Source: Chitinophagaceae bacterium (lineage in GTDB: Bacteria > Bacteroidota > Bacteroidia > Chitinophagales > Chitinophagaceae). Taken from it: a stretch of DNA of 64,000 nucleotides. Position numbers and translations under genes: made by a program. Location: the NCBI GenBank assembly GCA_947372105.1, contig CANBSH010000005.1, positions 1 to 64,000 of the forward strand. Direction: 5' to 3'. Below are positions 1,961-26,470 of this stretch, piece after piece (position 1 is the stretch's first letter; each line of letters opens with the position of its first letter). The notes beneath the pieces are model-generated. The model ran no database searches. It was given only the letters and a program-made list of their open reading frames with translations, and had not been told where the DNA came from.

Positions 1961-2827
1961 TTAAACCCATAATGATGCACTACCTATAATTGGTGCTATT
2001 TCTCCCTTATTGGAAATTATTATTTTGACATGCAACCCCATAGAATTTAAATTATGTTCTAATTTTTCTTGAAAAAATGAATTTGCCTTAGATATATTTC
2101 CACCAATTATTAGTATCTCAGAATTTATTTCCTTGTTTATTTGTATAATTAAATCAGTCAAATTATTTGTAAACTCTAAAAATAAAGTCTCTAATATTTC
2201 TGATGTTCTTTCAGATGAGATGATTTCTTTCAAATCGTTAAATTTATATCCAGTCATTTCTTGCACTTTTTTTACAAACCATCTTGTTGAAATATAATCT
2301 TCTGCAATCCCATTTTTAAAATCCATACACCAATAATTAGCGTCCGTTATTATGCCATCTTTATAGGTTGCTGACCCCAATCCTGTTCCAAGTGTAAGGC
2401 CAATTGCACTATCAAATGTTTCTAAAGGAAAAATTGTTTTTAATTCACCTTTTAAAAAAGCTTTAGCATCATTTATAAATCTAATTTGATTCGGGGCTAT
2501 TTCTAAACTATTTGCTAAAAATAATTTGATATTTTTTTTATATAATGATCCGAATTTATGCAATTCTTCCATGTAGCTTATGCCTAGTTCATAATCAAAA
2601 GGGCCTGGCATTGAAATTCCTATATATGAACATTTCTCTCCAAAGTGAAAATTTGTTTCATTTATACATTCTACCCATTGACTCAATATTTCAGATTCAG
2701 TTTCATTTGAATTGACGCTTTTTCGTACAAATGTATTTTTACAAATGTTCATATCATTTAAATTAACAACTGCCGAAGAGATATGCGATCCTCCTATATC
2801 AATGCCAATAGAATATTTCTCGTTCAT
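1961..2827 (-). CDS. ROK family protein, probable sugar kinase lacking the zinc motif
   Basis: A 288-residue actin-fold ROK protein. Visible motifs are the N-terminal phosphate loop DIGGSH (residues 10-14), GISMPGPFD (70-78), the catalytic-base region FINDAKAF with Asp120, and GLTLGTGLGSA (143-153). The Cys-rich zinc motif (CxCGxxGCxE) of many ROK kinases is missing; the matching region reads YWCMDFKNG. No helix-turn-helix precedes the fold, so a kinase is more likely than a repressor. It is the last gene of the PUL operon, 10 bases after the CE7-type esterase. The expected role is cytoplasmic phosphorylation of a released monosaccharide, possibly an amino sugar given the GH2 type, but specificity cannot be read from sequence. 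Confidence 0.75.
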   Translation of the reverse strand: MNEKYSIGIDIGGSHISSAVVNLNDMNICKNTFVRKSVNSNETESEILSQWVECINETNFHFGEKCSYIGISMPGPFDYELGISYMEELHKFGSLYKKNIKLFLANSLEIAPNQIRFINDAKAFLKGELKTIFPLETFDSAIGLTLGTGLGSATYKDGIITDANYWCMDFKNGIAEDYISTRWFVKKVQEMTGYKFNDLKEIISSERTSEILETLFLEFTNNLTDLIIQINKEINSEILIIGGNISKANSFFQEKLEHNLNSMGLHVKIIISNKGEIAPIIGSASLWV

Positions 2828-2837
2828 TTTTACAAGT

Positions 2838-4124
2838 TTAATTTTGATTTAGCTTATTAATCAACCAATTATTCAATTCTGATTTTTGTTCTTTATAAAA
2901 CCAATGACCAGTATCAAGATATAATGATAATTTTTTTTGAGATTTAACATTATTAAATGCAGCAAACATAGAAGTTGGAGGACAGGTTTCATCATTAAAA
3001 CCCCAAGTGTAAAAACCAGTTTGAGAAATACGTTTAGAAAAATTAGCAATATCAAAGTATTCTAATGTTTCTTTTGTTTCTTTATTATTGTATTTGTCTA
3101 GGTTCTGTTTATCGTAAAAATGAGGCCATCCTCCTGCTCTTCCAAAAAAATATCCTGTAAAGTCACACAAAGCTGGATGAATAACAGCCAAATAATTAAC
3201 TCTTTTATCTAGAGCGGCCGAAACTATACTCAAGGCGCCACCTTGACTATTGCCAGTTACTGCTAATGAATTAGGTTTAAATTCAGGTAAACTAACTACA
3301 AAATCTATAGCTCTTATGCAATTGAGATATACGCGTTTGTAGTAATATTTATCTTTATTGTTTGAATTAAAAAAGAAATACCCTTTTAAGGCGCCAGTCT
3401 CTAGATTATTATAAATACTCGGATCTAAAACAACTGGAATACCATGAATCCCTATGCTTAAAACAATGTAACCGCTATCTGCCATCTCTAAATCAGGTCC
3501 ATAAGGTCGTATGCCTGCTCCTGGTAGATTTAAAATAGCTGGATGTTTCCCTGATTTTTTAGGCATGCAAAGAATTCCATAAATTCTTGAACCTTGATAT
3601 CCTTGAATATTAACCTGGAAAACATTGGATCTAGATGAAGACTTATCTGGAAGTGGCGTAAGTTTTATATCTAATGGTACATCAGAAAGTTCATTTAAAG
3701 ATTTCTTCCAAAATTGATCGAAATCAGCTGGTTCGTTAGTGGTAGATTGTATCGAATTTATATCGTAACCGACGGTCACCATACTTTTATAAGTATTACT
3801 ATTTTCATAAACGGTTACCACACATCTCAAAAAACCGGGTTTAGTCAACTCGCTAGCTACAACATATGGCATTGATTGATTTTGAAAACTATCTTCAAGA
3901 AAAGGATTCATTTTTTCTAGACCTAGGCTAATTTTTATTTTCGTGTTTTTTAAATATGTGCCGTTTTTTAACGCCTGTATACTAAAGGTTGCTTTTTCTC
4001 CAATATTATATTCCCAATTAGAATGATTAGGTGTGATTATAATTTTTACAGGTTGCTCAAGTGGTTGAGATGACCCTATATAGGAATGAATAATTAAAAA
4101 TAGAAATAGAAATGCGCGCGTCAT
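2838..4124 (-). CDS. Secreted CE7/acetyl-xylan-esterase-like alpha/beta hydrolase
   Basis: 428 residues with a signal peptide (1-19). Residues about 20-125 form a beta-rich N-terminal domain. The alpha/beta hydrolase part resembles the AXE1/cephalosporin C deacetylase group (CE7): an FDQFWKKSL entry helix near 135, IYGILCMPKK near 182, and HPAILNLPGAG near 194. The catalytic triad can be placed: Ser293 in GNSQGG, Asp378 in GFNDETCPP and His407 in DTGHWF. CE7 enzymes remove acetyl esters from sugars. It lies four bases after the GH2 gene in the PUL, so it is expected to deacetylate the PUL's glycan or oligosaccharides in the periplasm. The fold is sure, the acetyl specificity likely. Confidence 0.8.
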   Translation of the reverse strand: MTRAFLFLFLIIHSYIGSSQPLEQPVKIIITPNHSNWEYNIGEKATFSIQALKNGTYLKNTKIKISLGLEKMNPFLEDSFQNQSMPYVVASELTKPGFLRCVVTVYENSNTYKSMVTVGYDINSIQSTTNEPADFDQFWKKSLNELSDVPLDIKLTPLPDKSSSRSNVFQVNIQGYQGSRIYGILCMPKKSGKHPAILNLPGAGIRPYGPDLEMADSGYIVLSIGIHGIPVVLDPSIYNNLETGALKGYFFFNSNNKDKYYYKRVYLNCIRAIDFVVSLPEFKPNSLAVTGNSQGGALSIVSAALDKRVNYLAVIHPALCDFTGYFFGRAGGWPHFYDKQNLDKYNNKETKETLEYFDIANFSKRISQTGFYTWGFNDETCPPTSMFAAFNNVKSQKKLSLYLDTGHWFYKEQKSELNNWLINKLNQN

Positions 4125-4128
4125 CGTA

Positions 4129-6948
4129 TTATAATTTTATTTTTTGGTTTAAAAAATTATATCCTTCAATCAAAATTTCTGAAATTTTGATATCGCTTTT
4201 GTAATATATTTTTTTGGCTTGATCAGGTAATAAAGTGAAATACCCTTCCGAGAAAAAAGAGGGGAGAATATTTTGACCATTGTCATCAACATTATTCAAC
4301 TTAATCCCCATTGCGGTTGATTTTCCTATATTTTTAATGATAAGGTATTCGCCTTTTTTATCTGACTTTTTTTCAATTATTTGAAAGTTGATCTTTGCAT
4401 ATGATTTTTGTTGTTCCGAATTTTGATCTTTATAATTAATCCAATAATCATTTTCTGAAATTATATTTTGATCCTTTAATGCAACAAGTTTTATAATATA
4501 AGCGTTTTTAGAATTATAATTATTTAAAAATGTTTTTTTGATATTTATAATTGAATTTGATTTTGAATTAACTGTTTTAGTTGTCTCGTCTACAATTATC
4601 CCGTCAGGGTTTACTATTTTAATTTGTATTGATATATTATCTAGATCTTGCAGTGTTGTATTTATAAGACTAACACTGCTATCGTTTAAATTATACTGTA
4701 CATGTATGGGTTCACAAGCTTTCTTTGACCCATAATAAGCGCCGGTTGTTTCAAAATCATATGAATATGTCTGCCAAATCATACTTGGCCAAGCTGGATG
4801 AGTCATCCATAATAATATCCCACTAGTATTATTCCATAACCTACTATTCCAAGATTCAAAAATGGTCCTATAGGTATCATAATTGAGGAGTTGAGCCTTA
4901 TTCGCAAAATCATCTAATGACCTAGATTCGCCATATTTTTGATCAATAGCTTGGAGATACCCTTCTAAGTTTTGGTTGTTGCTGTGTAAATCATGATAAT
5001 GCCATGCGTCATTAATTGGCCACCAATCCTCTTTTTTTAAGAATTTCTTTATCGTATTGGCTGTTGGAACTGAAAAACTGCCAATTTCGGTTGAAAAGCC
5101 ATAAGCATATTTATTAAAATAATCTACTGGACTTTCTAAATATTTCCAATCACCACTAGGCCTTAAATTAATTTCTCTTGAATTACCAATATAAAACCTA
5201 GTTCCATCTTCTTTTGCAATTTGAATAGCTAATTCATCTTCTATTCCGGCTGGTGCATAACCTTCGTTTCTTGGACACCAAATAGCTATTGAAGCATGAT
5301 TTCTGAATCTTTTTATAACATTAAGCGAATTTTCAAGAAATAAATTTTGATCTAAAGGGTTAACATTATATCCTTCTGTTGAAATCCAAAAATCATTCCA
5401 TACTAACATTCCATATTCATCAGCTAACTCGTAAAATATCTCTTCGGTTGATTCACCAGTCCAATTACGAATCATATTAAAATTTGACTCTTTATGTAAT
5501 TGAAAGGCAGCTTCTAGATTTTTTCTATTCACTTTTTTCATAGCGTCATCCATACCCCAATTACCTCCTCTACAAAATATTTTGTAACCATTCACCTTGA
5601 CTACTAGATAAGGATTTTCTCCGTCTAGTTGAATCATTTTATTTAAAATGTTTTCATTGCGTAAGGTGGGTATAAAAACCCTTTTCTCAATTTCTCTTCG
5701 TTTGCTATTATCAAAAATTGGACTACTTAATTGTAAATCCGTCGGACTAAACAAAACTCGTTGTGGACTATTTGCCTTGGTATCGGTTAAAACCTCGTAA
5801 GATAATTCCCTAATACCATAATTAAAATTATAGTGTTGACTAGTTATACTGTCGCCTAAAGAAACTGAAGTATAGACAGGATATAAATATTGATTACCAT
5901 AGCCATTTGGCCACCATAATTTTGGATTCAACATCGTGAGTTGATCGTATTGTGATGGTAAAAGAAGTAATTCTCTTGACTCATTTGGTTTTAATAAAAC
6001 TTTTTCTTTAAAATCAATATTCCCTAAATTAAAATGAAAATTTACATTTTGTGGTTTATCGCTATTATTGTGGATAGTAGTCTTAATAGTGAAGTAAACC
6101 CTAGTCGTATCAGGCAATGGTAAGTCTGAAATAATTTGTGGTTTATCAAAAGTAATTACGTTCGTAAAACGTAATTTAACAGGTTGCCAAATTCCCATAT
6201 TTCGATCTCTAATACCAGGCACCCAATCCCATCCTTCACTTGAAATAAACGTTGGGCCATCAAGAGCTAATTGTCCGCCATTAGGACCCATACCAGCTAA
6301 TTTTGATTGTTCGTGGGGAATACCCGGATTGGGAGGGGGCAAAATATGAACCGCAAGAATATTTTTCCCCTTATGAATGTGTTTACTAACATTAAATGAT
6401 TTAGCATTAAATGCACCATCAATATTGCCAATTTTTATATTATTTAACCAAATTTCAGCCTTATAATTTATTCCTTCGAAATCTAACCAGGGTAATTGAT
6501 TTAAATTAATATCATTACGAATATCTAATACGATTCTATACCACCAATCTTTTTTAGATAAGATTTCTGGTATGTGCATATTATTTAAGCCAATATAAGG
6601 ATCTGGATAATATCCATTATGTACCAAGGTTGTCAAAACGGTTCCCGGGACTATCGCATCTTGCCATTTTGTATTATTAATTTGTAAAGAAAAAATCGGG
6701 TTTTCAATAATGGAATTCGATTCTGCTAAAATCCAATTGTTGTTCAAATTATATGATCCACTATTATTAGCAATCTCGAAATATTTTAGACCATTAAATT
6801 TTTTAATTTTCGCATTATCAATTTTTCCATTTGACTTAGGCAATGTAATGGAATCCTGATTTTTTAAAAGTCCGAAATTCAATTTTGATTGGGCTTTTAT
6901 TAAGCTAGGGCAAAATAACAAAACGAAGATGTATTTAAAATATCTCAT
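4129..6948 (-). CDS. Glycoside hydrolase family 2, exo-beta-glucosaminidase/mannosidase-like
   Basis: 939 residues with a signal peptide (1-19). The order is a jelly-roll sugar-binding domain (about 60-265), immunoglobulin-like sandwich (about 270-385), TIM barrel (about 430-720) and C-terminal beta domains. The acid/base is Glu562 in WCPRNEG and the nucleophile Glu621 in STEIG. The RNWTGES and LVWNDFW stretches (about 494-522) resemble exo-beta-D-glucosaminidase (CsxA) and beta-mannosidase-like GH2 enzymes more than beta-galactosidases. It should cleave terminal beta-linked residues in the periplasm. It sits three bases after the lyase-esterase fusion and four before the CE7 esterase, firmly inside the PUL operon. 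GH2 is certain; glucosaminidase specificity is a guess from motif flavour. Confidence 0.87.
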   Translation of the reverse strand: MRYFKYIFVLLFCPSLIKAQSKLNFGLLKNQDSITLPKSNGKIDNAKIKKFNGLKYFEIANNSGSYNLNNNWILAESNSIIENPIFSLQINNTKWQDAIVPGTVLTTLVHNGYYPDPYIGLNNMHIPEILSKKDWWYRIVLDIRNDINLNQLPWLDFEGINYKAEIWLNNIKIGNIDGAFNAKSFNVSKHIHKGKNILAVHILPPPNPGIPHEQSKLAGMGPNGGQLALDGPTFISSEGWDWVPGIRDRNMGIWQPVKLRFTNVITFDKPQIISDLPLPDTTRVYFTIKTTIHNNSDKPQNVNFHFNLGNIDFKEKVLLKPNESRELLLLPSQYDQLTMLNPKLWWPNGYGNQYLYPVYTSVSLGDSITSQHYNFNYGIRELSYEVLTDTKANSPQRVLFSPTDLQLSSPIFDNSKRREIEKRVFIPTLRNENILNKMIQLDGENPYLVVKVNGYKIFCRGGNWGMDDAMKKVNRKNLEAAFQLHKESNFNMIRNWTGESTEEIFYELADEYGMLVWNDFWISTEGYNVNPLDQNLFLENSLNVIKRFRNHASIAIWCPRNEGYAPAGIEDELAIQIAKEDGTRFYIGNSREINLRPSGDWKYLESPVDYFNKYAYGFSTEIGSFSVPTANTIKKFLKKEDWWPINDAWHYHDLHSNNQNLEGYLQAIDQKYGESRSLDDFANKAQLLNYDTYRTIFESWNSRLWNNTSGILLWMTHPAWPSMIWQTYSYDFETTGAYYGSKKACEPIHVQYNLNDSSVSLINTTLQDLDNISIQIKIVNPDGIIVDETTKTVNSKSNSIINIKKTFLNNYNSKNAYIIKLVALKDQNIISENDYWINYKDQNSEQQKSYAKINFQIIEKKSDKKGEYLIIKNIGKSTAMGIKLNNVDDNGQNILPSFFSEGYFTLLPDQAKKIYYKSDIKISEILIEGYNFLNQKIKL

Positions 6949-6951
6949 AAA

Positions 6952-9900
6952 TTATTTATTTTTTATTGTTATTTGATTCCACTGATCAGTCCTAAACGGA
7001 TAAGCAGGAAGTGATAATGAATTTTGTAAATTTGTAATAGGAGAATTAGAAAAAGCATACCTAACAGCAATTGGTAACGATATACTATCTGAATATAGTT
7101 TAATTGTATTATTAATAATAATTGCAATAGCGGGTCTAAATACTTTATCAGAACCAGAGATGTAAAAATGTTTTGGATTTAGCCCATCATTAGTCGTTAA
7201 TCCTTTTGCGATTGAATTTTTTTGAAAATATATATATACATATTTTCCTTTAATTTCTATTTTAGCATATTTAGGGCCAAAAGGTGAGGTTGTAAATTTA
7301 TAATTTTCATATAACGCAAAATTGGCTAATCTTTCACCTACCGCTTTTTTATTTCTTGGGTGTATATTATCTGGTTCTCCTATATCCATTGTTACCGCCA
7401 TTTGAGTATGCGGTTCCGTCAACACTTTTTCTTGATTCTCTCTAAAAAGTGCATAATTATAATCTAAGGAATCTGTTTTTTTCCAATTATACGGTGTCAT
7501 TTGAACATAATAAAAAGGCAGTAAAGTATCATTGAAATCGTGTCTCCATTGTCTTATTAGTGCTATATTAAGCTTACTATATAGATTTATATCACCAGCA
7601 TTAGATTCACCTTGATACCATAAAAAACCCCTAATCGTATAATTTTTAATTGGGTGAATCATTGCATTGTAAATCAAGGTTGGCCTTAATACCGGTATTT
7701 TTTCATTAGGATTGGCATCATAGGGATCTAAGTACTTTTTACGTAATACAGAATCACTTCTTAATGTATTGCGATCCATAAATGCTTGTGCAGATGCGCT
7801 ACCATATGCACTTTGTATTATTCCAATGGGTATATTTAACTTTTTTTGGAGTTTTTTAGCAAAATAAAAAGAAACACCACTAAAATCTTTAATGTTTATA
7901 GTATCGCAATCCAACCAATTACCACCGGTATTGGGCATTAATTCATCGCTTGTTGTTTTAGGGATTTTTATTAAGCGAATGAATTTATTTGCAGAATGTT
8001 TAATTTCATCTTCATGATTTAAAACTCCTAAATGCCATGGTAAAAATGGCTGCATGCTCATATCCATGTTTGATTGTCCACTGGTCAACCACACTTCACC
8101 AAATAATATTTTCTTCAAGCTTATTTTAGTATCATTACTTTCTAGATTTATTGAATGTTCAATATACTTTCCTGGTATCGCTTTTGGTATACTTATTGTA
8201 AAAGACCAATTACCATCTTGTTGAATATTACATTTATAATTCAATCCCCAACTAGGTTTAATTGTAATCTTTGTTCCGGGAATCCCATAACCCCATAGTT
8301 TAAATTTTTTATCTTGTTGAATGACCATGTTCGTTTGTAATATCCCAGGTATTTTAAAAAAGGAAAAATTACTTTTAGACCATTGAGATAAACTGTGCAC
8401 TTTGGGCTGTATTTGTATGTCAGGATGAAACTCATGAATTAAAATTTGTAAAATACCGCTATCAGCATTTTTAATATTTATTGCTAATTTTTTGAATGAC
8501 TCATTTTTAGAATTGACAGTAAGTGGGAAATTTTCTCCAGGTAAGTATGTTGCTGGTAAAATTTGGAACTTTGCATCTAATTTAGAATTAATATTAAAGG
8601 ACATCTTTTTATCCCCTAAGGTTAGAATAGCAGTTTTACCATTATTGGTTAATAAAATGGATGCTTTTGTATGCATACTCCACCAGATATTCTTTTTACT
8701 CATACATTTAAATTCATCTTGTATAAGTATCGTTTTATCTTTCGTCAATAAAATTCCTCGCTTATATTCTTTAACATCTCTAAAATAGCAATTTGACAAA
8801 TCTGTTATAGCATAGCTATAGTTTTGATTATCTTCTAATTTCTCAAATTTTGCTACACCATTTTCAAATTGATCAGGTTTTATAGAATTATTAAAAACTA
8901 ATGTATTTTTCCCTTCGGCTCTTAATCTGTAAAAGTGCCACCTTCCTGGAGTTTCTTGATTCTGTATACTATCTGTATATGTAGGGTATGTTTTTTTGGT
9001 AAAATAACCAGGGAAGGTATAGTCATCCTTTCCTAAATTGCCATAAGCCCATACTTCGCCGAGTGCTTGTAATTCAAACGAGCCGGCATCTAAGTGACCG
9101 TGATTTGCATTATTATACCCTCCATGCATAGAAATATAGAAAGCATTTTTACTCCAATCAGATCTTAATGACATAATATCTATGCCTTTTATATGTTGGT
9201 TTAGTTCTATTTTATAGTTATTTAGGGTACTTGATTTTAGTAATGGGTTATAATAGATTAAATCAAGCCAATCAATATCATTTGTGTTAAGAGCGATTTT
9301 ATAATGTAAAGATGACAGTGCAGAATCATTATAATGATAGAAAAACCAGGGAAGAGATTTTGTATGAACTGTTTTAATTGGATCATCTCCTATATTTAAA
9401 GTACTTACTGGCCCACTCATTTTAATAGGGAACCACCCACTTTTTTTAAAGCCTTCATAAGAATCTAATCCAAAACATGTATGATAACTATTATTAACTG
9501 CTTCAATTGCTAAATTAGTATAAAGTAAACCATACTTCCAATATGCAACGCCTTCTTCACTTTGCCCATCTGGCTCAAATGTTTTCAAGTATTTAGGAAG
9601 TTGATAAATGCACTTTGTTAGTAAGTCTTTATAACTATTTTGATCCTGTAAAGATAAAATAGACATAATTATACCGCCATTACATACTCCATTCCAATTA
9701 TTAGTTGCATTATGCCACCAAATATTATTTTTTATTAATGGTATTGCTGGTTCTAAAATAAATTTTAAGATAGCATTTGAGATTTTTTCTTTTTGATTAT
9801 TTGTAAAATAACTTTTAAGTCCGTCTAAAGCAAAAGCACAATCGAAGCCGGCAATGCCAGCATCTAAAAAATGGCGATTTGCCCCCCAATCTGGATAAGT

Positions 9901-10311
9901 AAGCATTAGCTCTAATTGACTCCATATTCTTAGTGCATATTTTTCTTCATTCGTTAAACGATAAGCTAGTGTAAGAACGGGTATTTGACTTGCAAAGTCA
10001 TGTATAGATGGTATTCTTAGGTTGGCATCATCTAAATAATATTTAAGTAAAGGAGTTTTTAAAATAGAGTCTGCGTCACATTTTAGTTTCTTTACCCCAA
10101 CTTTAACTATTGTATCATTTTGATCATATAATTTATTTAAATCTCTCAAAATATTGTTTGAAAAAAATAAAGAAGATTCGTTTTCAATTCTACTACCAGC
10201 GTATTTTTTAACAAGATTAGAGTCTAATTGTCCAAATGTAGTATTAGAAATAATCATTGTAAATACAAAAACAAAGTATAATGTGATATTATTTTTAAAC
10301 TTAGACATCAT
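6952..10311 (-). CDS. Fusion: heparinase II/III-like lyase plus sialate O-acetylesterase (SASA)
   Basis: 1119 residues with a signal peptide (1-27). Residues about 30-640 form a heparinase II/III-type lyase: an alpha-toroid with YPDWGANRHFLDAG (139-152), NNWNGVCNGG (204-213) and SEEGVAYWKYG (251-261; Tyr257 candidate base/acid), then a beta-sheet domain with HGHLDAGSF (404-412). Residues about 655-1115 form an SGNH-fold SASA domain: Ser747 in SGQSN, WYQGESN (898-904) and Asp981/His984 in DNIHP. The protein could both deacetylate and cleave a uronate polysaccharide. The lyase half is a clear paralogue of the lyase at 12100-14196, but has VCNGG where that one has ICHGG. Usual lyases of this family end near residue 650, so the esterase is an added module. 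Both domain calls are strong; the substrate is unknown. Confidence 0.87.
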   Translation of the reverse strand: MMSKFKNNITLYFVFVFTMIISNTTFGQLDSNLVKKYAGSRIENESSLFFSNNILRDLNKLYDQNDTIVKVGVKKLKCDADSILKTPLLKYYLDDANLRIPSIHDFASQIPVLTLAYRLTNEEKYALRIWSQLELMLTYPDWGANRHFLDAGIAGFDCAFALDGLKSYFTNNQKEKISNAILKFILEPAIPLIKNNIWWHNATNNWNGVCNGGIIMSILSLQDQNSYKDLLTKCIYQLPKYLKTFEPDGQSEEGVAYWKYGLLYTNLAIEAVNNSYHTCFGLDSYEGFKKSGWFPIKMSGPVSTLNIGDDPIKTVHTKSLPWFFYHYNDSALSSLHYKIALNTNDIDWLDLIYYNPLLKSSTLNNYKIELNQHIKGIDIMSLRSDWSKNAFYISMHGGYNNANHGHLDAGSFELQALGEVWAYGNLGKDDYTFPGYFTKKTYPTYTDSIQNQETPGRWHFYRLRAEGKNTLVFNNSIKPDQFENGVAKFEKLEDNQNYSYAITDLSNCYFRDVKEYKRGILLTKDKTILIQDEFKCMSKKNIWWSMHTKASILLTNNGKTAILTLGDKKMSFNINSKLDAKFQILPATYLPGENFPLTVNSKNESFKKLAINIKNADSGILQILIHEFHPDIQIQPKVHSLSQWSKSNFSFFKIPGILQTNMVIQQDKKFKLWGYGIPGTKITIKPSWGLNYKCNIQQDGNWSFTISIPKAIPGKYIEHSINLESNDTKISLKKILFGEVWLTSGQSNMDMSMQPFLPWHLGVLNHEDEIKHSANKFIRLIKIPKTTSDELMPNTGGNWLDCDTINIKDFSGVSFYFAKKLQKKLNIPIGIIQSAYGSASAQAFMDRNTLRSDSVLRKKYLDPYDANPNEKIPVLRPTLIYNAMIHPIKNYTIRGFLWYQGESNAGDINLYSKLNIALIRQWRHDFNDTLLPFYYVQMTPYNWKKTDSLDYNYALFRENQEKVLTEPHTQMAVTMDIGEPDNIHPRNKKAVGERLANFALYENYKFTTSPFGPKYAKIEIKGKYVYIYFQKNSIAKGLTTNDGLNPKHFYISGSDKVFRPAIAIIINNTIKLYSDSISLPIAVRYAFSNSPITNLQNSLSLPAYPFRTDQWNQITIKNK

Positions 10312-10312
10312 A

Positions 10313-12118
10313 TTATAGTTTTAATTTTGACCAATCTCCAGAGTAATAGGCATATAGTATTTTGTTTTCTAATACAATATCCTTATTCAATTTTGATTGA
10401 TCTAAAAGATCCCTAAATAAATAAAAACTCAGCCAAAACGAAAAGTCGTACTTTTGATTGATTGAATTAGGGTGTAAATAAAAATTATACCAATTTGTAT
10501 TTATACCATATTTTTCTGCGATAGCTTTAATTTCTATTGCCTTTCCCCAATTCTTATTTACTTGACTTTCAAAAGTTTTTGATATTTTATTAAACTCTAA
10601 CGACTCTGTGGTAATTAAATCATAAGTATCTGAAATACCTAGTGTGATTAATGAAACCGAATCTTCAAATGATTGATCGCCATCTAAGTCGTATTTAATA
10701 AAATCTATAAATCCATTATTATCCGTATCCTCATATTTAATTAAAGCGAATTTTGTTGGTTCAATTTGTAAACGATTTTTGCCCCAACGACCATATTGTC
10801 CACCAAAGCCTTGATACGAAAATGCGGTCTGATCTATTCTCCAGGCCCCCCATTCGGCTCCAAACAAGTGTAACTTTCCATCAAATTTACCAATGTATAG
10901 AGATCCCTTTCCGCTAAAATCTTGATCAAATTCGCCTCTATCACCTATTGCATCAGATTGTTTATTATGATCTAAACCCCCGTTTTCAGTCCCGATTTTA
11001 TATAAATCCTTAGGGTCATAAAATTCCACTCTTTCCCATCTATTACAATCATCATCTTCATCAAAAACTAACCTGCATTCTTTCCATTTGCCTTTCGTTG
11101 TAATTAAGTCTAAAGCATTACTTCTATCAGGAAAAAATAGTGTGTCAATTTCACGCCATCTAGAATCATACATTATAGAATTAGCCGGTTGTAAGCCTTT
11201 TAATTTTTGAAATGTATGGAATTGATCTTCATAAGAAAATCCATTACCCTTAAACAATAAGCTCATATCAAAATCAAATTCATTAGATGGTCCGTTGTCA
11301 TTATCAAGATCCCAAGTTATAGCAGCATAATCTATTTTTTTGGTGAAACTGATATCATAATTTGAATCTATATTTTGAAATATAAATTTAGAAGCGGTAG
11401 CTGAATCTCTAAAGATTGGCGTATCCACAAGTCTAATTGCCATTTCGGTATACCCATCGTGATCAACATCATAAAATATGAATGGATTTTCCCAATTATA
11501 TCTCAAATCACTTATCCTAAAAGAAGATGCATGCATTTTTAAAAATGTAGAATTTCCGTGATAATCTTCAAAGAAATTACAACAACCGTTATGATCCCAT
11601 GCTTTCATTAATATAACATTCCAATCAACAAAATGCATTATACCATCTTTATCATCATCAAATACATACATATAGTCAGCACTCCAATCATAATAACTTC
11701 TTATTTTATTGCCGCCATTATTTACAATTAGTTGAATATCTGCAATTCCATCAGAATCTTCATCTGACCAATCAATAGAAAAATCAAACGGACCAGCAAA
11801 TATATTATCGTTATTTCTATCGATTAATAAACAATCATTATCTGTGTCCCCTTCTTTATCCCCATATTTCATATCATCATCATCATCAATCCATGCAATC
11901 GAAATTTTGTCATTTATAGTCGAATATAATACATCCGGATCGCCATCATTATCTAAATCGGAATACTTAATATTAGAAATTTGATTTACAAATCTCCAAT
12001 TAATTAATTGTGTATTTGTGTTCCAGTAATTATACTTTTTTTGAGAAAAAGAATTATAATTAAAAGAAATAAAAAAGAAGAACAAACTAGCGCTTTTTAT
12101 TAATTGCTTGAAGTCCAT
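10313..12118 (-). CDS. Asp-rich secreted protein with repeated calcium-loop motifs, unknown family
   Basis: 601 residues with a signal peptide (1-25). I do not recognise the family. At least seven acidic loops of DxDxDG type occur, near residues 54 (DLDNDGDPD), 118 (DEDSDGIAD), 153 (FDDDKDGI), 216 (YDVDHDGYTE), 270 (DLDNDNG), 464 (DTDNNGFID) and 477 (DLDGDQ). Such loops bind calcium in dockerin, EF-hand and FG-GAP repeats. Between them are aromatic-rich segments (GKFDGKLHLFGAEWGAWRID near 410), and the C-terminal 100 residues lack the loops. The start overlaps the end of the upstream lyase by 19 bases, and the stop is one base before the fusion gene, implying tight co-expression. It could be a glycan-binding protein or an unclassified enzyme; function cannot be assigned. 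Confidence 0.8.
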   Translation of the reverse strand: MDFKQLIKSASLFFFFISFNYNSFSQKKYNYWNTNTQLINWRFVNQISNIKYSDLDNDGDPDVLYSTINDKISIAWIDDDDDMKYGDKEGDTDNDCLLIDRNNDNIFAGPFDFSIDWSDEDSDGIADIQLIVNNGGNKIRSYYDWSADYMYVFDDDKDGIMHFVDWNVILMKAWDHNGCCNFFEDYHGNSTFLKMHASSFRISDLRYNWENPFIFYDVDHDGYTEMAIRLVDTPIFRDSATASKFIFQNIDSNYDISFTKKIDYAAITWDLDNDNGPSNEFDFDMSLLFKGNGFSYEDQFHTFQKLKGLQPANSIMYDSRWREIDTLFFPDRSNALDLITTKGKWKECRLVFDEDDDCNRWERVEFYDPKDLYKIGTENGGLDHNKQSDAIGDRGEFDQDFSGKGSLYIGKFDGKLHLFGAEWGAWRIDQTAFSYQGFGGQYGRWGKNRLQIEPTKFALIKYEDTDNNGFIDFIKYDLDGDQSFEDSVSLITLGISDTYDLITTESLEFNKISKTFESQVNKNWGKAIEIKAIAEKYGINTNWYNFYLHPNSINQKYDFSFWLSFYLFRDLLDQSKLNKDIVLENKILYAYYSGDWSKLKL

Positions 12119-14196
12119 GAGTCTAGGGTCTTTAAAATATTTCCATTCATATTATTTGCTGTAAAATCTACACTAATATTGGTAGAACTTGATACGTTAG
12201 TTAATTTAATTTCTAATTTTCCATAATAATTATTGAATCCATTTTTATTCAGCATAATTTGATTAAATATATCTTTTGTTTCAGACAAATAGTTAATAGT
12301 ATTTGTGGATCGATTGGTTAGTGAAAAAGTGGCTTCTGCCGGTGATTGGATTCTAGCATAATATATCTTTCCATTTTTTGACAAGGTGGCAACTTTTCCG
12401 TCTATGCTAATAGATAGTCCATCAGTTGCAGGACTATGCATAATCCAATATATGGTAGAATTTTTAGCAATTGGAGTAAACTCATCCTGAACTGTCATTA
12501 TAGCTTTAGACCTATTTAATTTTATCCCTCTTTTATAATTAGTCACATCTCTTAAATAATTAGAAGTTAAATCAATTATATAATATCCGCCAGAATTATC
12601 ATTAGACTCTTTTATCAAAGTAGCTTTCCCAATTGGATTTTGCTCTGGCCTAGCATCAGGATTAAAGACCAAACAATTCTTTCCTTCAGTTCTAATACGG
12701 TAATAATAGAATCTACCCGGTGTATTTGCGGTTCTTGTAGTTACATCATTATACAATGGCGCTGTGATATTAAAATAATCTGCAGGATATGTATTTTCTC
12801 TGCCTAAAGTACCAGCTGCCCAAATTTCACCTAAAGATTGAATATAAAAAGATCCAGCATCTAAGTGTCCATGGCTTGCATTATTATCCCCGCCATGCAT
12901 GCCTATATACATCGAACTTTCAGTATTATTTTCTGATATAAACATATAGTCCACCCCAGCGAACTTACCATTTAATGGAAAAATATAGCCAGCTCCCTTA
13001 TCAACTAATGATTTATTATAATAAAGTAAGTCTATCCAACCATGCATTTTATCGGTTTTATTTACATTTATGTTATTACATGCATCATAATGTGTTTTAG
13101 CAAAATTCGCATCATTAAAAAAACTTCCATACCAAAAATAAGAAGTTAGTTTATACGCTTTCCCATTATATAAATAATCATCGCCGATTGAAGTTGTAGC
13201 AACTGGGCCAGACATGTTGTATGGAAACCAGCCAGTTTTTTTAAACCCGTTTTTGGATGTAAGACCGAAAGTAGATGATAAGCAACGTTTCATGCTTTCA
13301 AATGCTAAAATTGTATTACTAAGTCCATAATCCCAATAAGACAAACCCTCTTCGCTAGCACCATCTGGCTCTAACGAATTCATATAATTTTCGATTCCAT
13401 TTGTTGCTAAAGAAATAACACTACTATTAAACACAGAATCTTGTTCATAAGTAGCCAAACTTGCCATAACCATGCCTCCATGACAAATTCCATTCCAATT
13501 ATCATTGGTTAAATACCATTTAAATACACCGGTATTTGTTTCAATTTGTGTTTTACCAGGCTGCAATACGTTTGCTTTTACTGCATTGTACAAAATTGTT
13601 TTTTGTGAAGCACTTAGATAATCAAATAAACCATCATAAGCAATTGCAATGCCCTTTGCCGCAATACCTGCATCTAAAAAATGTCTATTAGCTCCCCAAT
13701 CAGGAAAATTTGTCATTATGTCTAATTGGTCCCAACATCTTTTTGCATATTTAGTGTCTTTTGTAAATTGATAGGCTAGTACTAAATAAGGTAATTGATC
13801 ATTGACAAAAGTGTGAATGTTAGTGATTCTCAATCCAGCAGCATCTAAACCATAAGTGAGTATTGGACTAGTCAATAAAGTATTGGCTTTTGCTAAAATA
13901 CCATCATAAGTTCCTTTTACGAAAGGATCGGTTATTGCATTAGATTTAATCTGTTCTATATCAGATGCATTAAATAGTAATCTTGGATGAATGTTTTTTA
14001 ATCCTGTACCCCTAAAACAGTCCTTAACAATAGATGAAGAAATGGGAGTAACCGCATCGATTGGAAAATTTAAATTGTTGTTGTTATTTGAAGGAGGGGG
14101 GACAACGACAGGGGGGATATTCACCAATGACTCTTTTTTATTGCAAAAAGTGAAATTGAAAATAATAGCAATTATGAATAAAAATCTTGTCAACAT
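12100..14196 (-). CDS. Heparinase II/III-like polysaccharide lyase
   Basis: 698 residues. The N-terminus is hydrophobic with Cys18 in FTFCNKK, which could be a non-standard lipobox, followed by a PPVVVPPP and oligo-Asn linker (28-43), as in surface-tethered proteins. The lyase fold runs from about 65: FPDWGANRHFLDAG (164-177), NDNWNGICHGG (231-241), SEEGLSYWDYG (281-291; Tyr287 candidate catalytic residue), then the beta-sheet domain with HGHLDAGSF (442-450). Family members cut uronic-acid-containing polysaccharides by beta-elimination. It is paralogous to the N-terminal half of the fusion protein two genes downstream. The upstream GH-like gene ends 10 bases away. Lyase family is firm; heparin itself need not be the substrate. 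Confidence 0.87.
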   Translation of the reverse strand: MLTRFLFIIAIIFNFTFCNKKESLVNIPPVVVPPPSNNNNNLNFPIDAVTPISSSIVKDCFRGTGLKNIHPRLLFNASDIEQIKSNAITDPFVKGTYDGILAKANTLLTSPILTYGLDAAGLRITNIHTFVNDQLPYLVLAYQFTKDTKYAKRCWDQLDIMTNFPDWGANRHFLDAGIAAKGIAIAYDGLFDYLSASQKTILYNAVKANVLQPGKTQIETNTGVFKWYLTNDNWNGICHGGMVMASLATYEQDSVFNSSVISLATNGIENYMNSLEPDGASEEGLSYWDYGLSNTILAFESMKRCLSSTFGLTSKNGFKKTGWFPYNMSGPVATTSIGDDYLYNGKAYKLTSYFWYGSFFNDANFAKTHYDACNNINVNKTDKMHGWIDLLYYNKSLVDKGAGYIFPLNGKFAGVDYMFISENNTESSMYIGMHGGDNNASHGHLDAGSFYIQSLGEIWAAGTLGRENTYPADYFNITAPLYNDVTTRTANTPGRFYYYRIRTEGKNCLVFNPDARPEQNPIGKATLIKESNDNSGGYYIIDLTSNYLRDVTNYKRGIKLNRSKAIMTVQDEFTPIAKNSTIYWIMHSPATDGLSISIDGKVATLSKNGKIYYARIQSPAEATFSLTNRSTNTINYLSETKDIFNQIMLNKNGFNNYYGKLEIKLTNVSSSTNISVDFTANNMNGNILKTLDSWTSSN

Positions 14197-14206
14197 TAGA
14201 ATTATT

Positions 14207-15466
14207 TTATTTTAAAAATCCTCCGGCATTCTTTAATACTTTATTAAAATAATCACCGGCAAAACCAAGTGTTCCGTCAGGACGAATTAGCCAAAATCCT
14301 CTCATTTCATCAGTAGTTCGAACAGTATTTAATTTTCTTAATTCTTCATTTTTAGGTTCATTACAATACAATTCCCATTGTATTATATAGGGTACTTGTA
14401 ATGCTTCACACACCCCCAAATAAGCGTCCCACCTTTTAACAACAGATTCATAATCTGTAAGACCCTCATACCTTTGTTCTGGAATTCCTATTTCTCCTAA
14501 AAAAACCACCTTCTTCCCTTTCATATATGTAGTAGGTCGTATATACTTTTTAATATAATCAATCCCCTTGTACAATTTTAAACCTGTTGCATCTAATCCA
14601 TCATAACTTGACCATGATACCATATCGGTCTCAATCATCGGTAAAACTGAATTTATAATGCCAGGTATTCCATCCATACTATCATAAGTTTTATTTGCTT
14701 CTACTGCATGGTAAACTTTGCATTTTGTATTTTTAATTTCATTTCTGGCTCTATTAATTCCGTCTTGTCTTGCTTTAAACCATTTGGCCATTGCGTTAAT
14801 ACGATTTAATGAATCAGCAGGAACCGTTACTGTAACTCGATCTCCATCTACCGCTTTGATTAATTCTCCGGGTTTACGAGACCATCTAGCATAACTTCCT
14901 GTTCCACCTCTTAACATCCAATCACCTTCCCAATTATGTATAATAAAAGTGACATCTTTATCTTTATATTTTTCAAGTAAGTATTTAGTTAACTGGTAAA
15001 TTTCCTCTTTTTCGGCTGCTGCAGAAGAATCGGTAGTCTTAATTCCCGCACCATCAACACTTAATGCAATGGTACTAAAAGGCATATTAAACACATTGTC
15101 CCAATATGGATGTTGTGCCAATTCTTTAAGGGAAATATTAGGGGAAATATCCCAAGTAGAATTATATGGATAACCGCCTCCATTTTTTCTAAACCATAAT
15201 TTTATTACGCCATATCCCAATTCATTTAGTTTTTGGGCACCTTCGATTAAATAAGGCTCTTTAGAAAAATAATACTTGCCAGCCACATGTGTTGCACCTA
15301 GTCTATTTTTTATATTCAATGGGATTTTAGCTCCTTTTAAAGGTTGAAATGATTCTATTTTCTTAATAATGAAGTCGTCATTTAATTGACTCGCAGCAGG
15401 ATTTTGAGCCAACATACTATTTGCAACAATAATAGACAATAGCGTTAAATAAAATTTCATACTCAT
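14207..15466 (-). CDS. Putative clan GH-A-like glycoside hydrolase, family not recognised
   Basis: 419 residues with a signal peptide ending LAQ (residue 21); ATGs at residues 1 and 3 are both possible. The body looks like a single (beta/alpha)8 barrel. Two glutamates sit where clan GH-A enzymes keep their pair: Glu180 in IIHNWEGDW after a beta strand (about strand 4) and Glu325 in VVFLGEIGIPE (about strand 7), 145 residues apart. WSSYDGLD (285-292) and IIQWELYCNEP (361-371) would flank later strands. I cannot match it to a named family. It is the first enzyme gene after the susC-susD-DUF3823 cluster and lies 117 bases past a terminator-like hairpin region. A retaining glycosidase acting on the PUL's glycan is the best guess. 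Confidence 0.75.
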   Translation of the reverse strand: MSMKFYLTLLSIIVANSMLAQNPAASQLNDDFIIKKIESFQPLKGAKIPLNIKNRLGATHVAGKYYFSKEPYLIEGAQKLNELGYGVIKLWFRKNGGGYPYNSTWDISPNISLKELAQHPYWDNVFNMPFSTIALSVDGAGIKTTDSSAAAEKEEIYQLTKYLLEKYKDKDVTFIIHNWEGDWMLRGGTGSYARWSRKPGELIKAVDGDRVTVTVPADSLNRINAMAKWFKARQDGINRARNEIKNTKCKVYHAVEANKTYDSMDGIPGIINSVLPMIETDMVSWSSYDGLDATGLKLYKGIDYIKKYIRPTTYMKGKKVVFLGEIGIPEQRYEGLTDYESVVKRWDAYLGVCEALQVPYIIQWELYCNEPKNEELRKLNTVRTTDEMRGFWLIRPDGTLGFAGDYFNKVLKNAGGFLK

Positions 15467-15490
15467 TTATTTTATATTTTAATTTATAAA

Positions 15491-15529
15491 AAAATACAGA
15501 GTGATTGCTTTCGCTACCCTCTGCATTTT
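15491..15529 (-). terminator. Terminator-like hairpin inside the PUL operon
   Basis: Between the DUF3823 gene and the GH-A-like gene. The arms 15491-15501 and 15519-15529 pair over 11 positions with one mismatch (core CAGAG/CTCTG), with a GC-GAAA-GC cap read on the minus strand and a T-rich tail beyond. It would stop part of the transcription coming from susC-susD and lower expression of the enzymes relative to the transporter. No strong promoter was seen between it and the next start. Confidence 0.5.
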
Positions 15530-15582
15530 TATTTTGCTTAACCCCCGATAAGCAGTTACCAAAAAACAATCTATCTAAAAAT

Positions 15583-16311
15583 CTATAAACTTATCTTTAC
15601 ATAAGGTGCGTAATTTGATCTGATTGTTCCTACGCCAGAGACACTTGCAAAAGAGCCTACTCTAAAAAAATAGTCTCTTCCAGTTGGGAAAAGAGAAGCA
15701 TTTGCAGCTAAGTCAATACTCAAGTTATAAGTTGTATTGTCAATGGTTTTTACAGGACTAAATGTTTGCGAAAATGTAGTTCCAGAGGTTCCAAATTTAG
15801 TTTGCTCACCAACATACATGTCGCTAAATGCATATAATCTAACAGATTGCGCTTTCACTAAAGGACTACCTGCTTCTAGACTAAAAGTCGCATTAATCTT
15901 TTTATTTGCAGCGTCATAGGTGATCGCACAATTTTTAATTCTGATATAAGGAACAACCAGAAAATCTTGTTTATTTTCTCCCGGTTTTATGTTATATGCA
16001 GGAATTGTGTAAGGGAAAAAATTGCCATTTCTTAAGTAAATATCATAACTGCCAGAAAAAACTAAATTATTCCTATATTCTCCATTTTGTTTTATTAGCC
16101 ACTTTTGAGAAACTTGAGTTGGATAGCCTAGTTCAAACACCTCAATGACTGATCCATTCACTAAATCGGTTTCTACCAGACCGCCGCCGACACTATCTTT
16201 AATAGCGCCAAAAATTTGTGAATTTGGGCCAGGCATATTATCTTTTACACAAGACACCATAATAAAGCTTAGAAATAGAAATAATCCAACTTGATAAATT
16301 TTATTTTTCAT
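15583..16311 (-). CDS. DUF3823 surface lipoprotein
   Basis: 242 residues with a lipoprotein signal (FIMVSC, Cys21) followed by Ig-like beta-rich domains. The pattern SQIFGAIKDSVGGGLVETDLVNGSVIEVFELGY and the later SYDIYLRNGNFFPYTIPAYNI segment match DUF3823, a family encoded directly behind susD in many PULs. It probably sits at the cell surface with the SusCD complex and helps bind glycan, in the manner of SusE/SusF-type proteins, though no member's ligand is known to me. It follows susD by 19 bases and precedes a terminator-like hairpin, so it belongs to the high-expression front of the operon. Confidence 0.85.
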   Translation of the reverse strand: MKNKIYQVGLFLFLSFIMVSCVKDNMPGPNSQIFGAIKDSVGGGLVETDLVNGSVIEVFELGYPTQVSQKWLIKQNGEYRNNLVFSGSYDIYLRNGNFFPYTIPAYNIKPGENKQDFLVVPYIRIKNCAITYDAANKKINATFSLEAGSPLVKAQSVRLYAFSDMYVGEQTKFGTSGTTFSQTFSPVKTIDNTTYNLSIDLAANASLFPTGRDYFFRVGSFASVSGVGTIRSNYAPYVKISL

Positions 16312-16330
16312 TTTGATCTTGATTTACGGA

Positions 16331-18292
16331 TTAATATTGTGGATTTTGTATCAATTTATTAGTACTAGTTCCTGGAATAGCTTTGTAATAAGACATCATT
16401 TGAAAAGTTTGGCCTGCGGCTCTTTCATCAAAATAATTATTAGCTCTAACAAATATATATTTAGGTGTTGTCTGTCTCAAATCTAAAACAGGTACTAAAA
16501 CAGTTCTTCTTGTGGATTTAAATAAAGTATGGAAGTCTCTTCTTCTAACTAAATCCCAGTATCTAACTCCCTCAAAAGCCATTTCAACCCTTCTTTCTTT
16601 TAATACATTATCAATTGTCAATGGAATATTATCTGTATGTGCAGCTCTTTTTCTAAGAGCATTCAAATAAGTGGCAGCAATTGCCGCATCACCCTTACCA
16701 CTTTCCGATACTGCTTCAGCATAATTTAGATAAATTTCTGCCAATCTAAAATCGATATAATCAGTGGTAGAACTAAAGTAAGTTCCCTGAACGTTCTTGC
16801 CTTCCTGTAAGAATTTTTTTAAAGAAAACCCTGAATTTGAGTAATTCGGGTTGCTTGCGCTACCTAAATTTAAAAATCCAGAGTAGCTACTTGCAGAGCT
16901 TGCTCCATATGTATAATATGTTTTACCATCTTTACCAGGCGCACTTGCGTCAGCATAAATTAATTTAGTTCCATCTTGTTTTATTAATCCTCCTTGCATG
17001 GTAACTGTAACCCCTTTCCAGGTAGTTCCAGGTAACATAATGCTTGCAAACAACCTTGCATCTTTTTGAGAAAATATGTCAGATGGATTGTCATATAATT
17101 TAAATGGCTTTGTAACATCCAGTTTTGTTGGGTCAGCTATTACATCATTTTCAACCCCGTCAGTTCTGGTTATTAATGGACTGCTTTTCCCTAATCCATT
17201 ATCTGAATAATCTTCATATAAGTCTACCAAATTTAATGTTGGGCTTGATCTACCAAAGTATAAACCTCCTGGATTTGTTTGTGATGGATTAAAAAATACA
17301 TCAGTTGTATGCCCTTGCAACAATGAAGTAGTTCCATCAATATATCCTTTCTTAAAAAGAACTTCGACATCAGCTCCAGCTGGATTTTGAAAAATATCTT
17401 GAAAATTTTTAGCGGCATCTAATCTATTTGCAGGTGTTGGCTTATAAAGAGATTTTCCTGATCCGTCAATTATTGCTTTTGATGCGTCTATACATTGTTG
17501 ATAATAATTATCTGCATCTGATACAGTAAATCCTCCAACTAGTTTCTGCGAAACAGCATCGCCCACTAATGGTGCTTTATCCCAATATTTAGCTAGTGAA
17601 GCTGCAAATAATGAGGCTCTAGATTTTAAAGCCAGTGCAGCCCATTTAGTAGCTCTATAGGTACCTTCAACAGATGTATAACTTATTGGTAAATTTTTGG
17701 CAGCAAAATCGCATTCAGATAAAATATAATTCCATGTAGCTTTTTCAGTTGCTCTTGGTATAAACAAATTAGCATTATCAGAACCAGCAATATAATCTTG
17801 AACTGTGTCAATTAACGGAACTCCACCATATCTTTTTGCCAATCCAAAATACATATATGCTCTAATAAACCTAGCCTCACTCATTAATGAATTACGTTGT
17901 AAGTCAGACATTGCAACACTTGGTAATTGTTCCATGAACAAGTTAACTTGACGTATTGCATCATAACCCCAGTAACCATCATTAATTGGCCCTACGCCTG
18001 ACCCTGGTGATAATGTTGCTTCATCTGTATAATAAGTTGTGCCAAAGCCTGGCTCTACATATCCATTTGCTGTATTTCTGTGATAATTAAATCCAACACC
18101 AGGATTATATACAAAATCTTCAACTGGCATTTTATTATACAAATTTGCCAGTAAGACTTTTACACCATTAATATCGGTTAATAACTGTGAAGCTGGTACT
18201 CTATCTAATGGCTCAACTTCTAAAAATTTCTTACAAGCCGACATCGTTAAACATGTGGCTAAAATGGTTAAATATATTGATATTCTTTTCAT
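16331..18292 (-). CDS. SusD/RagB family glycan-binding lipoprotein
   Basis: 653 residues. A lipoprotein signal ends TMSAC (Cys20), followed by KKFLEVEPLDRVPASQL, the standard opening of SusD/RagB proteins. The N-terminal TPR-like helices carry NGYW/YDAIRQVN and EARFIRAYMYFGLAKRYGGVPL (about 140-165). The C-terminal SusD domain carries DFRLAEIYLNYAEAVSESGKGD and ERRVEMAFEGVRYWDLVRR. It is a surface lipoprotein that caps the SusC channel and captures oligosaccharides. Stop and start lie 10 bases from susC, the usual pairing. The length is slightly above average for the family. The call is certain; the glycan is not known. Confidence 0.95.
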   Translation of the reverse strand: MKRISIYLTILATCLTMSACKKFLEVEPLDRVPASQLLTDINGVKVLLANLYNKMPVEDFVYNPGVGFNYHRNTANGYVEPGFGTTYYTDEATLSPGSGVGPINDGYWGYDAIRQVNLFMEQLPSVAMSDLQRNSLMSEARFIRAYMYFGLAKRYGGVPLIDTVQDYIAGSDNANLFIPRATEKATWNYILSECDFAAKNLPISYTSVEGTYRATKWAALALKSRASLFAASLAKYWDKAPLVGDAVSQKLVGGFTVSDADNYYQQCIDASKAIIDGSGKSLYKPTPANRLDAAKNFQDIFQNPAGADVEVLFKKGYIDGTTSLLQGHTTDVFFNPSQTNPGGLYFGRSSPTLNLVDLYEDYSDNGLGKSSPLITRTDGVENDVIADPTKLDVTKPFKLYDNPSDIFSQKDARLFASIMLPGTTWKGVTVTMQGGLIKQDGTKLIYADASAPGKDGKTYYTYGASSASSYSGFLNLGSASNPNYSNSGFSLKKFLQEGKNVQGTYFSSTTDYIDFRLAEIYLNYAEAVSESGKGDAAIAATYLNALRKRAAHTDNIPLTIDNVLKERRVEMAFEGVRYWDLVRRRDFHTLFKSTRRTVLVPVLDLRQTTPKYIFVRANNYFDERAAGQTFQMMSYYKAIPGTSTNKLIQNPQY

Positions 18293-18302
18293 TTTTTTTA
18301 AT

Positions 18303-21476: not shown

Positions 21477-21510
21477 ATGGCGTTTTTTGTTCAAAATCAG
21501 GTTTTTATGA

Positions 21511-21528
21511 TGCAATATCGTTATTGCA
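21511..21528. promoter_or_regulatory. LacI-type operator, proximal copy
   Basis: The 18-base site TGCAATATCGTTATTGCA is a near-perfect inverted repeat around a central CG (TGCAATA/TATTGCA arms), the usual layout of LacI-family operators. It lies 35 bases before the susC start and next to a LacI-family gene. A second copy lies 23 bases away, centre to centre. Confidence 0.65.
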
Positions 21529-24119: not shown

Positions 24120-24128
24120 GATTTGTAT

Positions 24129-26465: not shown

Positions 26466-26470
26466 AACCG

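Follow-up and report, generated by a model that had tools for sequence, protein, structure and literature searches.

A probable fusion of a PL35-like uronate lyase and a CE20/SASA-type acetylesterase in a Chitinophagaceae genome

The known PL35 enzymes are chains of about 593-648 amino acids (aa) that are described as lyases only. In one of them, GAGase II, alanine mutants of Asn192, Tyr246 and His401 lost activity, alanine at His403, Asp405, Asp421 or His457 led to full or large inactivation, and manganese (Mn) was detected (available portion of PMC12088678). The CE20 esterases carry a GQSNM serine, an oxyanion Gln and a block-V His with Asp or Asn two residues before it; their ancillary domain is optional, being found in some members only and absent from animal members (available portion of PMC12313940). 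Here we describe a gene in which both kinds of enzyme are predicted to share one chain. It lies in a window of 64,000 nucleotides, the whole stretch of DNA that was analyzed (Chitinophagaceae bacterium, assembly GCA_947372105.1, contig CANBSH010000005.1, positions 1 to 64,000). We consider it likely that the gene is a genuine fusion of a PL35-like uronate lyase and a CE20/SASA-type acetylesterase, which would cut and deacetylate the same acetylated uronate glycan. The chain and its catalytic residues are laid out as follows:

6952..10311, minus strand: fused lyase-acetylesterase gene, stop codon included (open reading frame (ORF), Pfam, AlphaFold2 model)
10228..10311, minus strand: signal peptide of the Sec type, spanning residues 1-28 (read from the sequence; the model has a helix at 2-23)
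8404..10224, minus strand: PL35-like lyase half, residues ~30-636, an alpha/alpha toroid and then a beta-sheet domain (phmmer, model, Foldseek, VIA-align)
9697..9699, minus strand: Asn205, neutralizer, GAGase II Asn192 (alignment)
9541..9543, minus strand: Tyr257, catalytic Tyr, GAGase II Tyr246 (alignment)
9100..9102, minus strand: His404, catalytic His, GAGase II His401 (alignment)
8362..8403, minus strand: junction, residues 637-650, with no sign of another signal peptide (sequence, model)
6964..8361, minus strand: SGNH esterase half of the CE20/SASA type, residues 651-1116; the CE20 ancillary domain is absent (Pfam, phmmer, Foldseek, VIA-align)
8071..8073, minus strand: Ser747, nucleophile in GQSNM (alignment, motif search)
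7360..7362, minus strand: catalytic His984; Asn982 occupies the Asp/Asn anchor position (alignment, motif search)

The minus-strand ORF runs from 10311 to 6952 without interruption, opens with ATG and encodes 1119 aa; the plus-strand reading of the same interval is full of stops. Pfam assigns SASA to residues 739-998 (57.7 bits, cut-off 24.8) and Hepar_II_III_C, as a borderline match, to residues 394-594 (22.4 bits against a cut-off of 24; 25.7 bits in a six-frame search), and an NCBIfam search with the fused chain gave no match. An AlphaFold2 model of the whole chain, based on 48 aligned rows of window and locus proteins, has a mean predicted local distance difference test (pLDDT) of 90.2 and a predicted template modelling score (pTM) of 0.75, and Foldseek places CE20 and PL35 entries at the top ranks for it. 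The model depicts two full domains linked by a short, less certain stretch. An earlier note on this DNA had proposed a lyase and a SASA-type esterase in one chain, each with its catalytic motifs in place. The single ORF (halves ~30-636 and ~651-1116), the motif search with alignment, and the model all agree with that: both halves are predicted with confidence, superpose on 7kmm and 8khw, and keep the catalytic residues, which is far more than chance would produce.

The esterase half gave the strongest matches when the whole chain was compared with the PDB by phmmer (9h4u, 5.7e-74; 9ega, 9e-72; 7kmm, 1.1e-64), and VIA-align superposes the chain model on CE20 7kmm with a Z of 43.0 over 428 residues at 2.2 Å. 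Its motifs are located at residues 745-748 (GQSN), 898-904 (WYQGESN) and 981-985 (DNIHP), and supply the features of the CE20 SGNH core: Gln746 at the oxyanion position, Ser747, the block-V His984 and Asn982 two residues ahead of it. The acetylesterases 7kmm (XacXaeA), 9h4u (Fl8CE20_II) and 9ega (PpCE20_II) are 32-36% identical to it over 428-443 residues (Z 41-43) and share the GQSNM block, the block-V His and the flanking N- and C-terminal beta-sandwich domains; the model aligns with all three structures over residues 650-1111. By contrast, the window half has Asn982 instead of Asp as the anchor, is preceded by a lyase and lacks the ancillary SGNH insert, which leaves it at ~466 residues against 636-644 in solved bacterial CE20 members. 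The animal sialic acid esterase SIAE (8f9o-8f9r) is likewise a CE20 protein without the ancillary domain, as far as the available source text goes; it superposes with a Z of 38.7-39.7, but is only 27-28% identical and has no lyase fusion. In three loci (L075, L076, L083) a longer SASA esterase of 657-684 aa, more distantly related (32-36% identity), stands where the esterase would be, as if the esterase type had been exchanged within one operon design. A genus-mate encodes a different esterase fusion, a 1336-aa chain (L036:6990-11000, plus strand) with consecutive matches to SASA, GDSL lipase and GH20.

The lyase half is matched by PL35 chains in phmmer (8khw, 3.5e-45; 8khv, 6.5e-43; 9o3q, 2.8e-34) and in Foldseek (2.7e-34), and VIA-align places it on 8khw with a Z of 35.9 over 559 residues at 3.1 Å. 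GAGases II and VII (8khv, 8khw) and BcPL35 (9o3q) share the fold over ~560 residues (Z 34.9-35.9) and have the catalytic Asn, Tyr and His in common with the window half, to which they are 22-26% identical. The corresponding motifs lie at residues 204-207 (NNWN), 253-261 (EGVAYWKYG) and 404-408 (HGHLD). The window lyase falls in a clade of 42 rows, selected by Lys at residue 468; these include two window genes, and L034 and L093 are one record entered twice, so that 41 are distinct. The catalytic trio is kept in all clade rows that cover each residue (Asn 40/40, Tyr 40/40, His 42/42), the conservation of His404, His406 and Asp408 being partly a matter of choice, since HGHLDAGS served as a locus search pattern. 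In the lyase tree 39 clade rows (L034, L105 and L114 were omitted as duplicate or short) form one group with 100/100 support, and none of the four His- or Gln-type rows falls inside it. The earlier expectation that lyases normally end near residue 650 mostly holds; the clade nonetheless contains extended members, namely L086 and L102, with 1119-1160 aa and fn3 or secretion-tail matches (some under Pfam cut-offs), and L087, with an N-terminal extension. A 2080-aa Thermoguttaceae chain (L103:5810-12049, plus strand) has PA14, a PL35-like lyase, CBM96 and a dockerin match.

We refer to the kind of lyase found in the fused window chain as type A and to the kind of the second window lyase as type B. 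An esterase accompanies 12 of the 20 type-A lyases: it is in the chain in two cases, in the next gene on the same strand in eight and within two genes in two more. With at least 1.5 kb of sequence on both sides, 8/12 are paired. The 21 type-B lyases have an esterase in the chain in no case, adjacent in two and within two genes in three (two of these being the fused chains themselves). Other PL35-like rows were paired in 0/42 cases in the same scan and in 2/29 (L064 adjacent, L067 within two genes; in L055 the esterase is on the opposite strand) among earlier family and relative stretches, most of which have only ~1500 bases of flank and among which lyase L038 was counted as two pieces, giving 2/71 in total. 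The contrast between type A and the others is indicative only, because the groups differ in taxonomy and flank length. The proposal that lyase and esterase are coupled thus fares well in so far as the two activities belong together in 12/20 type-A cases, and less well as to form, since relatives pair them as neighbouring genes and fusion is rare. It is conceivable, if unlikely, that the two halves serve different substrates or act at different times, and that the fusion only secures their co-export or equal amounts: ten of the 20 type-A lyases have a separate esterase gene nearby, for eight none is seen, and L075, L076 and L083 use the more distant, longer SASA esterase. The pairing, however, outlasts that change of esterase type, suggesting that it is deacetylation as such that the glycan requires.

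The least expected result is a clade-wide swap at the metal site. Its positions in the window lyase are:

9124..9126, minus strand: His396, reciprocal swap position, Lys in most other PL35-like rows (alignment)
9037..9039, minus strand: Asn425, replaces GAGase II Mn-site Asp421 (alignment)
8908..8910, minus strand: Lys468, replaces GAGase II Mn-site His457 (alignment)

The Mn-site residues His403 and Asp405 of GAGase II are kept as His406 and Asp408. Lys occupies position 468 in 42/42 clade rows, as the selection requires, and His occupies position 396 in 42/42. The 468 column is covered by 68 other PL35-like rows, of which 61 have Lys396/His468, three have His at both positions and four have another combination or a gap; duplicates (L003, L004, L005, L039, L040, L041, L042, L071) and matches under 150 residues had been dropped before the count, and three rows are without the column. 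Lys at both positions occurs in no row among the clade and the 68 others. The three PL35-like lyases with His at both (L109, L119) could represent a half-way state. The column of Asp421 holds Asn in 35 and Asp in three of the 42 clade rows, and an extra Gly (residue 424) stands ahead of it in all 42. Positions 396, 425 and 468 fall outside both patterns used to search for loci (HGHLDAGS and one at ~542-550). As judged from these alignments, the metal site of the clade must be built differently from that of PL35, since the Mn-site residues whose loss inactivates GAGase II fully or largely include two, Asp421 and His457, that are mostly or always replaced in the clade; Lys may substitute for the metal, or His396 may become a ligand. 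The replacement of two Mn-site residues by Asn425 and Lys468 is also the reason why the window lyase is labelled here as PL35-like, of a divergent clade, and not as a plain PL35 member. Neither the publications listed by a capped literature search nor the available portions of PMC12088678 and PMC11262172 mention that Lys and His are exchanged at the metal site of PL35; subscription papers and preprints lay outside the scope of this search and of that for the fused chain below. One further candidate replacement, that of an essential Arg of BcPL35 (Arg76; available portion of PMC12269599) by His104, was discarded after a column check. That Arg probably belongs to the column that follows, which holds Arg in 50/68 other rows, most often Thr, Lys or Gln in the clade and Asp105 in the window chain.

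The altered site invites a second alternative, namely that the lyase half has lost its lyase function and binds or otherwise acts on the glycan, leaving only the esterase active. The exchanges of Asp421 for Asn and His457 for Lys point that way, as Ala at either position inactivated GAGase II wholly or largely (available portion of PMC12088678), and so does the long branch of the fused lyase half (1.11 and 1.05 in two lyase trees). Against this, the catalytic Asn, Tyr and His are kept in all clade rows covering them, and a swap that is common to the whole clade, together with strong conservation, speaks for kept function, so that we regard such a loss as improbable.

The join between the halves falls at the mature start of the esterase: FKIPGILQTNMV aligns with the first post-leader residues of the esterases of L034 and L069. 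Model pLDDT drops to ~70-73 at residues 631-650, and no clear second signal peptide or remnant of one was found by reading the junction in three frames. The GC content is even around the join (0.298, 0.298 and 0.307 in 140-codon blocks before, holding and after it; 0.267-0.326 over the gene). In a family genome (G185, locus L069) the gene order is as in the window, but the lyase (652-aa ORF) and the esterase (508-aa ORF) are separate and slightly overlapping, carry the Pfam matches Hepar_II_III_C and SASA on their respective ORFs, and are followed by GH2 and AXE1-like esterase genes. In locus L074, too, the genes are ordered as in the window while lyase and esterase are encoded apart, and in G061 (L034) a separate esterase with its own leader stands between a type-B lyase and a GH2 gene. 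The absence of a second signal peptide in any frame and the gene order of the relatives with separate genes make the join very probably real. An assembly or sequencing error that reads two neighbouring genes as one, a danger raised beforehand for this junction, would be in keeping with the separate genes of relatives, a draft genome of 84 contigs and a fusion in one of the six type-A carriers of the genus, but we set it aside as highly improbable, because an error removing a stop would retain the esterase signal peptide, the flanking genes are arranged as in relatives, the composition is even and another assembly holds a second fused chain.

That second chain belongs to L078, which is from a different assembly and encodes 1724 aa, with the 601-aa neighbour of the window lyase (see below), a lyase and an esterase in one frame; the window chain matches it in a single match over residues 46-1116. 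It is the only fused lyase-esterase chain besides the window gene among 149 loci, 77 of which came from a contig scan with the two patterns, and the rarity supposed for this pairing is upheld by the genome searches. No other lyase-esterase frame was found with the whole chain among 120 relatives, or with the lyase half in 394 family genomes (E up to 1e-20) and in 396 order, 395 phylum and 147 genus genomes (E up to 1e-60); the samples overlap, and in the family, order and phylum searches, as in that for the 601-aa family, at most three candidates per genome were scored, so that further copies could be missed. A 921-aa frame on G061:C223, aligned to residues 204-715, was rejected as a fusion, being a His-type lyase with a C-terminal extension that lacks the GQSN motif. 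Within the genus, a clade lyase is present in 8/147 genomes and a type-A lyase in 6/147, and among those six only that of the window is fused. In the lyase trees the window lyase stands next to L069 (94/90 and 87/93, neither starred), and the esterase tree places the window esterase in a 98/89 group with three esterases encoded by separate genes. When the window and L078 are constrained to group together, the approximately unbiased test speaks against this for the esterase tree (p 0.023) but does not reject it for the lyase tree (p 0.092). Two origins of the fusion are therefore likely, though not proven, as the window rows have long branches, and the fusion is probably a rare, derived state. 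None of the titles and abstracts listed by capped literature searches dealt with a PL35-SASA/CE20 chain.

For the genuine fusion that we favour, the following course may be envisaged. A lyase gene would have been joined cleanly to the adjacent esterase gene after loss of the downstream signal peptide. The lyase half would cleave beside uronic acid by beta-elimination, with Asn205 as neutralizer and His404 and Tyr257 as base and acid, and the esterase half would use Ser747 and His984 to take off O-acetyl groups. Working on one and the same glycan, acetylated and containing uronate, the two halves would strip its acetyl groups and cut it, probably in the form of oligosaccharides in the periplasm. 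Both activities, their periplasmic location, the order in which they act and the substrate are inferred. The earlier note had pictured a secreted enzyme that strips the polymer. We consider a periplasmic enzyme acting on imported oligosaccharides more likely, because the leader is of the Sec type without a lipobox cysteine and a secretion tail is absent (both by reading), while the paralogue in the window looks lipoprotein-like. The glycan itself is a guess: an acetylated and, in some species, sulfated exopolysaccharide containing uronate. Several observations weigh against a fused enzyme with both activities. Two of the four Mn-site residues, each of which inactivates GAGase II wholly or largely when lost, are replaced; an esterase is missing from the stretch examined around 8/20 type-A lyases; and the pairing is not wholly specific to the clade, as the His-type, PL35-like lyase L064 from the same family has a 449-aa SASA-like frame beside it on the same strand. 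The fusion is found in one genome of the genus only, with no second genome to confirm the exact gene, and the contig of the nearest relative (L091) ends before the fused gene, nothing of which was found elsewhere in that bin. Finally, no report of activity for a clade lyase was found in the literature, and the activities of the window chain are predicted only.

The genes around the fusion, all on the minus strand from 1961 to 21515, combine a SusC/SusD pair (by reading) with glycan-active enzymes, and the locus reads as a polysaccharide utilization locus of the SusC/SusD type:

1961..2827, minus strand: ROK-family sugar kinase (Pfam)
2838..4124, minus strand: AXE1 (CE7-type) acetyl esterase (Pfam)
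4129..6948, minus strand: GH2 glycosidase with Ig_GlcNase domain (Pfam)
10313..12118, minus strand: 601-aa conserved gene, no Pfam family (Pfam, locus comparison)
12100..14196, minus strand: the other PL35-like lyase, of type B; a paralogue with 42% identity and a leader that, by reading, looks lipoprotein-like (Pfam, tree)
14207..15466, minus strand: 419-aa conserved gene, no Pfam family (Pfam, PDB search)
15583..16311, minus strand: DUF3823 protein of SusC/SusD operon (Pfam)
16331..21515, minus strand: SusD-like and SusC-like genes, named by reading (sequence)

The 601-aa protein is Asp-rich, and its window copy is 53-90% identical to 15 other rows. In L087 it precedes the lyase in a single 1188-aa chain that has no esterase, and in L078 it shares a chain with both lyase and esterase. 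It has no Pfam match even at E 10 and a best PDB match of E 0.11; its model is poor (pLDDT 60, pTM 0.45) and gave no convincing fold match (best Z 5.4). In the genus it occurs in 7/147 genomes, which are all those with a clade lyase except G061; six of the seven have a type-A lyase, and the contig of the seventh (G1166, the contig of L091) ends just past the 601-aa gene. In the family it occurs in 3/394 genomes (G000, G185, G346), and G483, with a cut-off clade lyase, is unmatched. Its tie to the lyase is not absolute, as in G346 it lies ~80 kb from a His-type PL35-like gene. The 419-aa protein has no Pfam match and an unconvincing best PDB match (E 0.042); copies are 45-89% identical in L073, L079, L091, L096, L097, L100 and L101, and 27% identical in L081. 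Clusters of relatives contain further genes, some of them for uronate catabolism, that would fit uronate release: the L069 cluster has KDG-kinase-like, BT3233-like and GH3-like genes (all under NCBIfam cut-offs), and by reading there are a KDPG aldolase and a hexuronate transporter in L174, a KduD-like dehydrogenase in L176 and a sulfatase in L175, L176 and L079. On another contig (C29) of the window's own genome, GH88 is matched above the Pfam cut-off. Elsewhere in the window (24123-27916, plus strand), two neighbouring genes resemble, by reading, cytochrome-c-type/sulfatase-like pairs that are presumably common in Planctomycetes. No paper on polysaccharide utilization in Sediminibacterium was found.

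A wider interpretation, which we offer tentatively and with more doubt than conviction, is that of an undescribed lyase clade with a metal site rebuilt by the Lys/His swap, in which either a Lys cation takes the place of the metal or His396 serves as the new ligand. This clade would form a unit with the acetylesterase and the 601-aa Asp-rich family, the three parts being joined in varied combinations. The window chain is a natural one-chain pair for testing acetyl gating of a uronate lyase, for which the relatives with separate genes are ready controls. With the clade-wide swap, natural variants can be compared to test what the metal does in PL35 enzymes, and the varied gene fusions point to the unnamed, highly conserved 601-aa family as a likely partner in the breakdown of acidic, acetylated glycans. 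As an enzyme the fused chain is a rare variation on a familiar theme and not a new kind, as multi-catalytic chains are already known. Fused acetyl-feruloyl esterases of Bacteroidetes reportedly carry two catalytic domains per chain for a decorated polysaccharide; they join esterase to esterase for action on xylan, whereas the window chain would join a lyase to an esterase.

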